From IMG/VR virus record IMGVR_UViG_3300027418_000016, positions 1-44,098 of that record: DNA of 44,098 bases, one strand, 5' to 3'. Source of the stretch: a virus. Of this stretch, positions 17,703 to 23,019 are shown in pieces; position 1 is the stretch's first letter; every line of letters begins with the position of its first letter. The position numbers and the translations under genes are program-made. Below the pieces are notes generated by a model that saw only the letters and a program-made list of their open reading frames with translations, was not told the DNA's origin and ran no database searches.

Positions 17703-20207
17703 TTATCCGTTAAAAGCTGCTCCAGTTGGTAAAATGTTGAAATCAATTTGAATGAATTCAGCCGTTTTAGTTGGTTGTAAAAAGATAGCACCTTTCATAA
17801 TGTTTCTATCAATTACATCTGGAGTATTATTAGTGTCATCCATTACAACTCTGAAAGCGTATAAACCTTGGTTTTGTTGTATTGATGATAAATAAGGATT
17901 TACAATGTTTAAGAATGCGTTTCTAGTAGTAGATGTATTTTGTTCGAATACTAAATATCTTGAAGTAGAAGCTATGTACTTTCTAACTGTTAATAATAAT
18001 CTTCTTACATTAATTCTATCTAATGCAGATGCTTTATCTTGTAATGTCTTTTGGCCAAATACTACGATACCTTGTCCTGGGAATTGTACGATTGGATTTA
18101 CTTTACCTTCGTATAAATCATCTTTTTCAGTTTGAGTTAATCTATTCAATACACTAACTGCGCCTGTCAAACCACCTCTATTCAAACCTGCTGGTGCGAA
18201 CCATTCTGCTGCTACTCTATCATTATTTGCAAATACACCTGGTAATAATACCGATGGTGGAACTGTAATTAATTTGTTTGTGTTAGCATCAACTGTTTTA
18301 ATCCAAGGATAATAAGTTGCAACCATATTTGAATCAACTGCGTCAGCTTGTGTTGTAGCTTGTAAAACTGAATCAGCTGCTGCCGTTGTATCCATAATAT
18401 AGAAACAATCATCTCTTTGTTCAACCATATCTAAAACTGAAGTTATTACTGAAGTATGTAATCTTCTAATAACACCCGGAGTTACAACCATATTGATATC
18501 AAATTCGTCAGCGTTAGATAATGCAGATATGTGTTTAGCGTATGCTACTGAACCACTTTTTAAAGATGTTGATAAATCAAATCCTTGTGAATTAGTTGCA
18601 GTTATATTTGTTCCAGTATAAATTGGAGTTGCCGGTGACATACCATCAAAACCTTCTTGAAATGCTACAACAAATTGTGCAGCTGCATCACCTACTGATA
18701 ATGTACCACCATTTGTTGCGTCTAAACCAAATACTGAATTTGAACCTACACTTACTCCTGTTGGGATTGGTTTTAGGTAAATTGAGTTGTCGGTATTAAA
18801 ATCTAAATCAATACCACCATATTGTGTCACCGATGCGGTTAAGAATGATACTGCAGGTATTTTTGAACCAACTGCTGCGGATGCAGAAACTGGTAATTGA
18901 TACGCTGTATGTCCAAACGGAACTGCTTGAACCGGTGCCGATTCATTTAAGTTTTTAATTCTAACATATTTTGAATTATTAACCCAATCACCTGTTTCAG
19001 AAATTTTACCATCTGATGCGATTGTTATTTTTCTGTCACCAATTACTCTACTAATATAGTTTGGAGAGTTGGGGTCTAAGTTTACATTTGAATATGTCTC
19101 TAATACTATTTTCTTTTTATTGGTATCATTAAAATCTCTTATAACAATAGTAAATGTACCATAATCGGTACCATTTATAGAACCTGCTGCTTTTATATTT
19201 GTAATTCCAACTTTTATTTTTGTATTAGATGTGTTACCTGCTCCGATTGTTTCAAAACGGAATAAATCTTCTCTTATACCACTAATAGTTTGTGATTTAA
19301 TAATTGGTGTTTGAGCTTCTTGTGCATCAAAATTAAATAATTGGTTGCCCAATACATTTATACTTGCAGATGCATGAGAATCAAAATTAATACCACTATT
19401 TTTGAAATATCCATGTACATATGCTGCTTTTGAACCCATTGCAGATGTTCCGAATACCGCTTCAACATCGTTTGTATCTGTTAACTTTAAAGATGCCGAT
19501 GTGTTTAATCCATTACTTAAGTAAAAATCACCATTACCATTGTTATCTGCTAAAGTTGAACCTGAAAAACCTGCGTTTGCTCCTACTGCGGTATTAAATA
19601 AAATTGCTGCAGTTGAACCAGATACATCATATGTGATATCAAAACTAGCAGTAACTATATCACTTGCAAGTCTTGCAGCTGATTGTGATACGAATATTGA
19701 AGTAGGTGCTACTGTCAATCCACTTCCTTTTTGAGATATAGTAATTGCACTAATTGTACCATTTGTAATAGTTGCCGATGCAGATGGGTTTGTTGCAAAT
19801 GTACCACCCTGAAAATATATAGGGGCTGTACCATTTGAAGTACCATCTGATGCTGAATAATTTGTTCCTGCTGATGATGTTAATAACGAATCAATCTGTC
19901 CTAAGTTAACTGCACTTATTAATAAAGGAGCGGTTTCGGTATATCCACCAACACCAGCTACTCTACAAATAGTTGCAGTTCCTGCTTCTCTTAAATAATT
20001 TTGTACTGCTAATGGAGTATAATATGTGTCATCTACTGTTCCAAATAATGTTTCAAATTCAGTTTGTGAATTTACGATTGTTGGTACTAACGGGCCTTCT
20101 TTGAAAGGGCCTATGAAAGCTGCACCGATGTTTGCAACACCTTGTTGCAAGAATGAAAGGTCATTTTCTCTCGTAAATACACCTGGTGATACGATTTTTT
20201 CTGCCAT
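17703..20207 (-). CDS. Contractile tail sheath protein (gp18 type)
   Basis: 834 residues, against 659 in T4. The N-terminus (IVSPGVFTRENDLSF, then GAAFIGPFKEGPLVPTIVNS) and the C-terminal domain (SALDRINVRRLLLTVRKYIA, RNAFLNIVNPYL, and GAIFLQPTKTAEFIQIDFNI) are clear sheath motifs. The extra length is in the middle, roughly residues 105-600, in Ser/Thr-rich beta segments that should face outward. Residues 142-172 (ASATITNGTISAITISQKGS, then GLTVAPTSIFVS) match a small repeat also found in the tail fibre at 25826-29779. The sheath contracts to drive the tube through the envelope. It is followed after 40 bases by the tube gene. An ATATTTATA box is 32 bases upstream of the start. Confidence 0.95.
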   Translation of the reverse strand: MAEKIVSPGVFTRENDLSFLQQGVANIGAAFIGPFKEGPLVPTIVNSQTEFETLFGTVDDTYYTPLAVQNYLREAGTATICRVAGVGGYTETAPLLISAVNLGQIDSLLTSSAGTNYSASDGTSNGTAPIYFQGGTFATNPSASATITNGTISAITISQKGSGLTVAPTSIFVSQSAARLASDIVTASFDITYDVSGSTAAILFNTAVGANAGFSGSTLADNNGNGDFYLSNGLNTSASLKLTDTNDVEAVFGTSAMGSKAAYVHGYFKNSGINFDSHASASINVLGNQLFNFDAQEAQTPIIKSQTISGIREDLFRFETIGAGNTSNTKIKVGITNIKAAGSINGTDYGTFTIVIRDFNDTNKKKIVLETYSNVNLDPNSPNYISRVIGDRKITIASDGKISETGDWVNNSKYVRIKNLNESAPVQAVPFGHTAYQLPVSASAAVGSKIPAVSFLTASVTQYGGIDLDFNTDNSIYLKPIPTGVSVGSNSVFGLDATNGGTLSVGDAAAQFVVAFQEGFDGMSPATPIYTGTNITATNSQGFDLSTSLKSGSVAYAKHISALSNADEFDINMVVTPGVIRRLHTSVITSVLDMVEQRDDCFYIMDTTAAADSVLQATTQADAVDSNMVATYYPWIKTVDANTNKLITVPPSVLLPGVFANNDRVAAEWFAPAGLNRGGLTGAVSVLNRLTQTEKDDLYEGKVNPIVQFPGQGIVVFGQKTLQDKASALDRINVRRLLLTVRKYIASTSRYLVFEQNTSTTRNAFLNIVNPYLSSIQQNQGLYAFRVVMDDTNNTPDVIDRNIMKGAIFLQPTKTAEFIQIDFNILPTGAAFNG

Positions 20208-20275: not shown

Positions 20276-22009
20276 TTATTTGTATGTTGGAGAGAAATAA
20301 TTATATGTTTCTGTTACTTTTGTCGAATTTTGTAATACATTATAGAACAATACTGGTCCTATTTGTCCATTCCAAAACGTTGTTCTTGCACTATTACTAC
20401 CAATTGTTAAATAGTTAGTAGATGCAGGTGCCGTAAATGCTGCTGCCGTAAATGTTCCTACCGATGTTCCGTCTACATAAACTGTTACAGTTCCTGATGG
20501 TTGGAATGTTGCTGAAATCATATACCAAACATTTGCTGATAATGATGTCGTTAATTGTGCACTATTTCCTAATGTACTACCATAGAATTTTACTCTATTT
20601 AAAGTAGAACTATCTGACGATTCAATTGCTAAACCATAAAAACCCGCGTAGTCAAAAATGTGTCTTGTAGTTGTACCCAATGTTGTAGTAGGTCTTACCC
20701 ACATATGGATTGTACCAGTATTAGTATTGAATTGAGATAAGCCACCATTTATATTTGATGCAGTATCTTTATAAAATAAGTCACCACCATCAAAAGAATA
20801 ATATCTTTCTTTTCTAGTTGCACCATTATTGTATGCCGGATTTGAACTCGCTCTCTCTAAAGGTGATTGTGCTCCAGGTCTAATACCTGTACCATATCCT
20901 GTCAAGTCTAATAAATCTACAGTTGGAGTTCCAGTTGCTGGCAATGTACCAGCTCCAAATGATGAGGTTTTTGATGGGTCAACATACATTCTTAAACCGG
21001 CTGCAGGGATAGATGGTTGTGTTGTTGTACCTTTATTATGTGAAATATATCCGTTTGAAATATAAACGTCAGCACTTTCAACATTCACAGTTACAATTTC
21101 AATATCTGCTTCTATTATTGCTATATCATAAACCAATTCTTCGGTTTCATCTTCTTTTACCAATTTATCACCAGGAAGAATATCTTCTACATTCTTAAAT
21201 TTATATTTTCCAATCTCATTATCCCATACAAATAATGGGTGAGTACCTGTTGCTTTTATTGCACCATTATTTATTGAAAAATAACCAGATGCAAAGTTAA
21301 AAGTCAAATCGGAAACTATTACATCTTGTGATACACCTTCTAATGAATCTAATTGATGAAAACGCCATTCTATTTGGTCAGATTCTGCATCTAAATTCTC
21401 ATCGGGTAATCCTGCTGGCACCCATGCTTTAATGGTATCACCAACATTTAAATCTTCAACATTAATTTCGGTATTGTTTGATAATTTTACTTTTGTACCA
21501 AATAATAAACAAAAATCAGGTTGATTGATTGTATTATAAACATCTACTGCGTATAATGTTTTTGTAGATGTAGTATTATACCCCGTTGCATTTAAATTAT
21601 ATCCATCTGCATATGTCATTGATAAAACTGATTCAGCTTCAGAATAGTTTGCAGCTGCAATTGATGCAGGTGTAATTGGAAACGATGGTGATGCACCTAA
21701 TGTTGCAGTACCTACCGAAAAATTTGCATTATTAAATGATACTGTGTAATTTGCTGCTACACTACCAACTCGTGTTCCATGTAAAGAACCCTGTGAACCA
21801 AAAGAAAACGTTGCCGTTTCTGATGTGCTTTCTACTATATAAGTGTATGTTGGTTGATTTGCAGTTATAGTATCGACTGCAAATGAGCTAAATGCTGCGG
21901 CTGTACCAGCTGCTGCGTTCATAGCGTTCATTGAAACTTGCTGAGTAGTTCTCGTCGAACCCTGCGTTGCTCTGTATAAATTACCTAACGATAAATTTGT
22001 TCTTGCCAT
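20276..22009 (-). CDS. Virion protein with internal intein-like Hint domain and C-terminal LamG domain
   Basis: 577 residues in three parts. Residues 1-166 are a Ser/Thr/Ala-rich beta region (MARTNLSLGNLYRATQGS at the start), probably the virion-bound part. Residues 167-325 are a Hint domain. Block A starts at Cys167 (CLLFGTKVKLSNNTEINVED, then LNVGD), block B is TGTHPLFV with Thr254 and His257, block F is IVTVNVESADVYISNGY, and block G is His324-Asn325. Residue 326 is Lys, not Cys, Ser or Thr, so standard splicing is not expected; this matches bacterial intein-like (BIL) domains, which mainly cleave. There is no room for a homing endonuclease. Residues about 335-577 are a LamG-like jelly roll (TIHMWVRPTTT, VWYMISATFQPSGTVTVYVD, then WNGQIGPVLFYNVL). 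It lies between the glycosyltransferase and the sheath gene, and an ATATTTATA box is 22 bases upstream. Confidence 0.85.
   Translation of the reverse strand: MARTNLSLGNLYRATQGSTRTTQQVSMNAMNAAAGTAAAFSSFAVDTITANQPTYTYIVESTSETATFSFGSQGSLHGTRVGSVAANYTVSFNNANFSVGTATLGASPSFPITPASIAAANYSEAESVLSMTYADGYNLNATGYNTTSTKTLYAVDVYNTINQPDFCLLFGTKVKLSNNTEINVEDLNVGDTIKAWVPAGLPDENLDAESDQIEWRFHQLDSLEGVSQDVIVSDLTFNFASGYFSINNGAIKATGTHPLFVWDNEIGKYKFKNVEDILPGDKLVKEDETEELVYDIAIIEADIEIVTVNVESADVYISNGYISHNKGTTTQPSIPAAGLRMYVDPSKTSSFGAGTLPATGTPTVDLLDLTGYGTGIRPGAQSPLERASSNPAYNNGATRKERYYSFDGGDLFYKDTASNINGGLSQFNTNTGTIHMWVRPTTTLGTTTRHIFDYAGFYGLAIESSDSSTLNRVKFYGSTLGNSAQLTTSLSANVWYMISATFQPSGTVTVYVDGTSVGTFTAAAFTAPASTNYLTIGSNSARTTFWNGQIGPVLFYNVLQNSTKVTETYNYFSPTYK
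21035..21511 (-). other. Region encoding the Hint (intein-like) domain
   Basis: This covers codons for Cys167 to Asn325 of the protein at 20276-22009. At 159 residues it is the size of a minimal Hint domain without an endonuclease. All splicing-side residues except the downstream nucleophile are present. Confidence 0.8.
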
Positions 22010-22020
22010 AGTATAAAGTG

Positions 22021-23019
22021 TTATTCTCCGTTATAAATATCTAAAAGTTTTTCTTTCCAATCATCTTTATTAGAAAAGTTTTTAATCATCCAATTCTTAA
22101 GTTTTTCAAATTCTGCTTTACGGGTTTCGTAATCATCCTGACAAATTGTTTGGTAGGTTTTTTTAAATGTTTCCTCATCAATCGCTTTGTACTTATAGTC
22201 AAGTGGAACATGCCATGTTTCATGTAATATTGGTAATTTACCCCAATCGACTGCTTCAAATATTCCATATCCAAATGGTTCATGTTGAAAGCAAGAATGA
22301 GATATTCCCCAATCAAGTCCATAGAACCTTTCTTTATATTTGTAATCAAACTTGTAAATTTTTGATTTCTCAAATTTGTATCCATATTTCTTTTTATAAT
22401 ATTTGTTAAATGTTTCTGAATTAGTCGAAATAAATCCACCCAATCCATCCATATATTCAACATTTTTTCTACCTTCAACTCTTGCTGCGTATCCCAATTC
22501 TACCGATGTTGAAAGTTCTTTGTTTTGTGTAAATGTATAATTATTTGGAATATGATGTAAGTTTTCCGTTTCATATGGAAAATGATACAATCCTACCCAA
22601 ACTTTATTTTTAATTTTGTTTATTAATTCGTTTTCGTATTCCCAATTACCATACCAGTGCAAATATTCATCTTTATTTTGTTGTGCCATTAAAGACACTT
22701 TGGTTAAATTATGGAATACAATTGAGTCAATCTTTTCCAGGTTTTGATGAATAGCTCTGGTTGGAGTATAATGACCATGTAATATATGTATCTTTCTTGC
22801 ACCTTCAAAGATTTCAATAATTTTATCTTCGGATGTTTCCCAAATATGGTCTATATCGATTGGAAATTCTTCGTAATTTGTAGGTTTGTGCCTATGGAAA
22901 AGAAGAAGTGGCTTGACTTCTAAATCAGGAGCCACTTCTTCTATCCAATTAGTTACCCATATATCAGCTCCGCTATTGAACCAGGGTCCTCCTGCGGTAG
23001 TGTAATAAACATCATACAT
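22021..23019 (-). CDS. GT-B glycosyltransferase (family 4-like)
   Basis: 332 residues. The N-terminal half has the features of a GT-B acceptor domain (AGGPWFNSGADIWVTNWIEE, then IHILHGHYTPTRAI at 77-90, a His-containing loop). The C-terminal half has YAARVEGRKNVEYMDG (residues 178-193), the usual R-x-E-x-R-K-N donor-site strand, and HEPFGYGIFEAVDWGKLPIL (246-265), with the E-x7-E pair Glu247 and Glu255 that contacts the nucleotide sugar. It should transfer a sugar from a nucleotide donor; the donor is unknown. It sits among adhesin and fibre genes, so the most natural substrate is a virion protein such as the Ser/Thr-rich fibres or the Hint-LamG protein. Modification of host surface sugar is the alternative. 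Confidence 0.78.
   Translation of the reverse strand: MYDVYYTTAGGPWFNSGADIWVTNWIEEVAPDLEVKPLLLFHRHKPTNYEEFPIDIDHIWETSEDKIIEIFEGARKIHILHGHYTPTRAIHQNLEKIDSIVFHNLTKVSLMAQQNKDEYLHWYGNWEYENELINKIKNKVWVGLYHFPYETENLHHIPNNYTFTQNKELSTSVELGYAARVEGRKNVEYMDGLGGFISTNSETFNKYYKKKYGYKFEKSKIYKFDYKYKERFYGLDWGISHSCFQHEPFGYGIFEAVDWGKLPILHETWHVPLDYKYKAIDEETFKKTYQTICQDDYETRKAEFEKLKNWMIKNFSNKDDWKEKLLDIYNGE
22032..22040 (-). promoter_or_regulatory. ATATTTATA box embedded in the end of the glycosyltransferase gene
   Basis: Exact match 22 bases before the Hint-LamG start. It lies within the last codons (D-I-Y) of the glycosyltransferase, so the motif is also compatible with coding sequence. Confidence 0.4.

Follow-up and report, generated by a model that had tools for sequence, protein, structure and literature searches.

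The 577-residue product of the gene at 20276-22009 (minus strand) is probably a structural protein associated with the tail and capable of self-processing by a Hint domain that resembles the A-type bacterial intein-like domains (BILs), as judged from sequence comparison and structural modelling. This hypothesis rests on the Hint fold, a strictly conserved catalytic set and a constant position beside the tail sheath gene. The gene lies in a viral stretch of 44,098 nucleotides, referred to here as the window. The residue following the Hint domain is lysine, and what that lysine would do determines which products would be expected.

Gene anatomy and tail gene context

The open reading frame encodes 577 amino acids plus stop, in the order N-domain, Hint and LamG, all on the minus strand. 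The N-domain (residues 1-166; 21512-22009) would become the thioester-linked acyl group during processing. Its Ser plus Thr content is 27%, in agreement with the Ser/Thr-rich region described in an earlier note on this DNA, and PHROGs and PDB searches identified no known relative of it. The Hint domain (residues 167-325; 21035-21511) is 159 residues long, which leaves no room for an endonuclease. Cys167 (21509-21511), the block A nucleophile, is the only cysteine of the protein. Block B is T254-G-T-H257 (21239-21250), with T254 and H257 invariant, and block G is H324-N325 (21035-21040), the Asn cyclisation site, which is invariant in the alignment. Lys326 (21032-21034), the invariant +1 residue and a candidate acceptor amine, begins the C-terminal part (residues 326-577; 20279-21034), in which a LamG domain was significant (PF13385, E = 8.9e-17; residues 425-561; 20327-20737). 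Both T254-G-T-H257 and H324-N325-K326-G327 were found where the earlier note had placed them, and its anatomy of a complete Hint domain interrupting an N-terminal region and a LamG domain was upheld by the open reading frame, the alignment and the fold match. Many inteins carry Asp and His in block F. The 577-residue protein has T307 and D314 at these positions, so processing rates could be low.

The tail sheath gene (17703-20207, minus strand; phrog_23, E = 5.7e-65) is directly downstream, at a distance of about 74 bases, and this arrangement was present in 184 of 184 loci. Directly upstream is a 332-residue gene (22021-23019, minus strand), located about 15 bases from the Hint gene in 154 of 155 loci. 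Pfam and PDB searches with the 332-residue product returned no match; a GT4-like glycosyltransferase motif, EPFGYGIFEAVDWGKLPIL, was recognised by eye, and the product might glycosylate the Ser/Thr-rich N-domain. Further genes in the window encode tail tube, baseplate-wedge and hub-like products, as well as two fibres that carry S74 chaperone domains; these indicate a phage with a contractile tail. From its position, we infer that the 577-residue product is a virion protein associated with the tail. Judged by the loci sampled, the Hint gene family is that of a large, uncultured group of aquatic phages and is always beside the tail sheath gene.

Assignment of the Hint domain

Sequence searches with the 577-residue protein gave a weak Hint signal in Pfam (Intein_splicing, E = 0.079; AXH, E = 0.003), no match in PHROGs and NCBIfam scans, and no match in a single-sequence PDB search. 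A profile searched against PDB matched BIL2 and Prp8 inteins best, at E = 0.02-0.8. The AlphaFold2 model of the Hint domain was of moderate confidence (mean pLDDT 66.7) and matched BIL2 best among solved structures (6y75 and 6tmm, E = 2.7e-8 to 1.7e-7), followed by the Clostridium BIL 2lwy (E = 1e-6); further matches were the Prp8, gp41-1 and DnaB inteins and Hedgehog (1at0). There were 52 structure matches at E <= 0.001, and the listed ones were all Hint structures. The earlier note had proposed a profile search as the check for Hint similarity; that search gave the weak Pfam matches and an AXH cross-match with blanks in PHROGs and NCBIfam, and the fold comparison was decisive. The full-length model was poor (pLDDT 48.8).

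An identity as an AXH domain was rejected, because the AXH model (PF08517) scores the Hint stretch of a relative with a strong Hint signal (phage Hint domain at residues 619-723 of L221, E = 3.7e-19). Phage domains annotated as AXH may thus be Hints.

The domain has the Hint fold, Cys1 and TxxH that define the Hint superfamily. With the A-type BIL of Clostridium thermocellum (2lwy) it also shares the terminal His-Asn, the lack of Cys, Ser or Thr at +1, a residue that is not obligatory in A-type BILs, and a setting within the variable part of a protein that is itself not conserved, evident here from mosaic alleles. It differs in its place in a phage tail cluster, in a +1 residue fixed as Lys, and in its weak response to Pfam models. 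Class 1 inteins likewise have the fold, Cys1, TxxH and His-Asn; however, the phage domain has Lys in place of the +1 Cys, Ser or Thr, has no homing endonuclease, and is carried by a protein that is not a conserved enzyme, and no intein-free allele was seen among the complete open reading frames within a limited sampling. An ordinary intein was rejected on the +1 residue, the domain size and the lack of empty alleles among those found. We read the domain as an A-type BIL-like domain that is predicted to be active in autoprocessing.

BIL2 of Tetrahymena thermophila BUBL1 (6y75, 6tmm), the best match by both fold and profile, is likewise an intein-like domain flanked by another domain on each side, and the lysine isopeptide product reported for it is a further point in common with what is considered for the phage domain. 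In contrast to the phage domain, it belongs to a eukaryotic ubiquitin-like locus, its acceptor lysine is in the next domain, and it is zinc-activated.

Hint domains also occur in tail-region proteins of the cultured phages Erwinia Alexandra (gp112), Yoloswag (gp103), Phage NCTB and Alcaligenes Afa-NA1. Some of these tail-cluster proteins are annotated as intein domain proteins, with their function unremarked. Their Hints are C-terminal with a short tail, the N-terminal parts are collagen-like or other, and the +1 residue is T, A, M or K. The earlier view that such maturation would be unusual for a tail adhesin must accordingly be narrowed: tail-cluster Hints are already present in cultured phages, but a full LamG domain after the Hint together with an invariant HNKG marks a distinct variant. 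What stands of the earlier description is an intein-like, autoprocessing-type Hint that is encoded in a tail gene cluster, has another domain on either side and lacks Cys, Ser or Thr at +1.

Other arrangements were observed in large viral contigs. Three open reading frames (L221, 2150-4453; L230, 1676-4450; L236, 2129-4903) carry two to four head-to-tail Hints, the first of them Cys-less, and end in LVHNK followed by a stop. On one 80.8-kb contig, two nearby open reading frames (L396, 1918-3510; L391, 883-2025) are each Hint-terminal, with the tails KGTDSDPG and VHGK.

Conservation and exchange of the Hint region

Each IMG/VR scan for relatives returned between 171 and 312 matching stretches, and the fetched loci contained 191 distinct relatives. 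C167, T254, H257, H324, N325 and K326 were invariant in 82 aligned close sequences, confirming the +1 residue as Lys in all close relatives aligned, and K326 was kept in 152 of 152 distinct open reading frames of one cluster. L279 and L371, two divergent orthologs that occupy the same place in the gene order, have a different LamG; their identity to the 577-residue protein is 44-45% in the N-domain, 36-37% in the Hint and 19-22% in the C-terminal part. Both keep C167, T254, H257, H324, N325, K326 and G327.

Every complete family open reading frame contained an N-domain, a Hint and a C-terminal domain. The incomplete ones were accounted for by contig edges, splits by frameshifts or stops, or a different C-terminal domain. 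Neither an N-domain profile nor a DNA motif from the N-terminal end found a Hint-less or Cys-less allele, in a sampling weighted to close relatives in which Hint-less alleles could be missed. A search of bacterial and archaeal genomes with the family profile found no relative. One natural contig (L283, 8333-10075) has an in-frame stop a few codons ahead of the Hint HN.

The Hint was more variable than its flanks, and the junction segments 151-166 and 326-340 were conserved. The N-domains of L020 and L021 are 98% identical in amino acids, their Hints 62% and their C-terminal parts 85%; a comparison codon by codon groups L020 with L021 until about 168 and then mostly with L069 through the Hint. 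The similarity of the two junction segments is as expected from exchange through conserved junctions. By these alignments, the Hint region acts like a cassette that is swapped separately from its flanks, with a conserved junction on either side. These mosaic alleles fit the published view that BILs lie in hypervariable regions (PMC7765530, PMC5874633).

Lysine at +1 and the expected products

In Hint chemistry, the Cys1 thioester carries the carboxyl of the preceding residue, and cyclisation of the terminal Asn gives C-terminal cleavage. In the 577-residue protein, the F166-C167 bond would rearrange so that F166 is linked to C167 as a thioester, and N325 would cyclise and cut before K326, so that the Hint would leave. 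For the N-domain end there would then be two possible fates: hydrolysis, which would leave the mature proteins as two separate chains, or capture by a K326 amine, which would rejoin N-domain and LamG. The earlier note had LamG attached elsewhere through the C167 thioester. This must be turned around, since the thioester activates the F166 C-terminus and the N-domain, not LamG, would be the transferable part; LamG would only gain a new amino terminus, K326.

The +1 residue was surveyed in Hints sampled from viral contigs and genomes by a DNA pattern for the N-terminal motif CFxAGTx[VIM]xM, which is blind to the C-terminal end. Among the matches listed, Lys followed in 49 of 66 viral Hints ending in HN. 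In 60% clusters of the listed matches, Lys was at +1 in 20 of 34 viral clusters against a 5% Lys background of these proteins (P about 7e-18, with clusters treated as independent), and in 9 of 27 clusters from bacterial and archaeal genomes. Single linkage at 40% merges the sampled Hints into one large cluster and takes the mean K per cluster down to 0.26. Lysine at +1 went with Cys1, being present in 32 of 61 listed clusters with Cys1 and in 1 of 11 without (Fisher P = 0.009), the Cys-less Hints being few and related. Hints flanked by ribonucleotide reductase-like or other conserved-enzyme sequence mostly ended in HNC or HNS, which serves as a positive control for the survey. The part following Lys ranged from 1 to about 2000 residues of unrelated sequence, with +2 onward much less conserved; inheritance of Lys with a homologous flank was rejected because these sequences differ in length and letters. 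N-terminal Lys or Arg can act as an N-degron, a role that would be possible for long C-terminal parts and was rejected for proteins ending in HNK. Among the matches listed, 6 of the 14 viral clusters lacking Lys at +1 had Lys at +2. On these counts, Lys at +1 is more than a neutral absence of a nucleophile. We regard this as new here; no mention of such a rule was found in the open-access literature searched, subscription literature being outside the scope.

These results are compatible with more than one outcome. Cleavage without religation, which we place somewhat ahead of ligation through K326, is plausible though short of probable: C167 hydrolysis and N325 cyclisation would free N-domain, Hint and LamG as separate chains, and Lys would merely favour C-terminal cleavage or suit the released end. 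The family lacks Cys, Ser or Thr at +1, and BILs lacking a +1 nucleophile have been found predominantly to yield cleaved products (PMC7664689, PMC7765530). However, cleavage itself does not explain why the residue is Lys rather than any non-nucleophile. Alternatively, a K326 amine could attack the C167 thioester, leaving a virion protein of N-domain joined to LamG with no Hint, an outcome we consider possible but doubtful. The side chain would give an isopeptide link, and the alpha-amine freed by Asn cyclisation a normal peptide bond. K326 is invariant even where LamG is replaced, and the enrichment of Lys in viral clusters and its association with Cys1 point the same way. Splicing of BIL2, the best structural match, has been reported to leave an isopeptide link with a lysine in its downstream domain (PMC8616854), which gives a lysine acceptor a precedent in the Hint fold. 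Yet that lysine lies in a ubiquitin-like domain and is not described as +1, the sampled Hints are related enough to merge at 40%, and the Cys-less Hints in the Cys1 comparison come from few families. The earlier step from Lys at +1 to cleavage was right as to a BIL-like autoprocessing Hint lacking Cys, Ser or Thr, but too quick, given the lysine enrichment, the lysine reportedly used by BIL2, and reports that some A-type BILs splice despite lacking the +1 nucleophile (PMC5874633).

Several phage Hints end their proteins 1-12 residues after HN (HNK, HNKH, HNKGTDSDPG and HNTDIVAKAEKK, each followed by a stop), so that in those phages processing would be worthwhile only for the N-terminal part. 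Such ends would suit capture of the N-domain thioester by an amine of another virion protein, producing a cross-linked tail surface; for the 577-residue protein family, in which the C-terminal side is a full domain, this transfer is improbable. Least credible, and very unlikely in our judgement, is a selfish intein or inactive relic with no virion role. Mosaic exchange of the Hint would agree with it, but 159 residues leave no space for an endonuclease, Hint-less alleles were not found, the +1 residue is not Cys, Ser or Thr, and all catalytic residues are kept at 37% Hint identity. A broader and rather unlikely proposal is that HN-Lys Hints of phages and some bacteria constitute a class of their own by mechanism, one that moves the N-terminal part from the Cys1 thioester to the junction lysine amine.

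The Lys signature offers a direct, one-residue test of what nucleophile-free BILs produce, and a lysine-accepting Hint, if true, would be a compact protein ligation tool. If the domain is active, these phages would use an intein-like domain to mature a tail protein that is widespread and occurs in natural mosaic forms; if the HN-Lys class is real, their tails would include (iso)peptide-joined proteins built from exchangeable modules.
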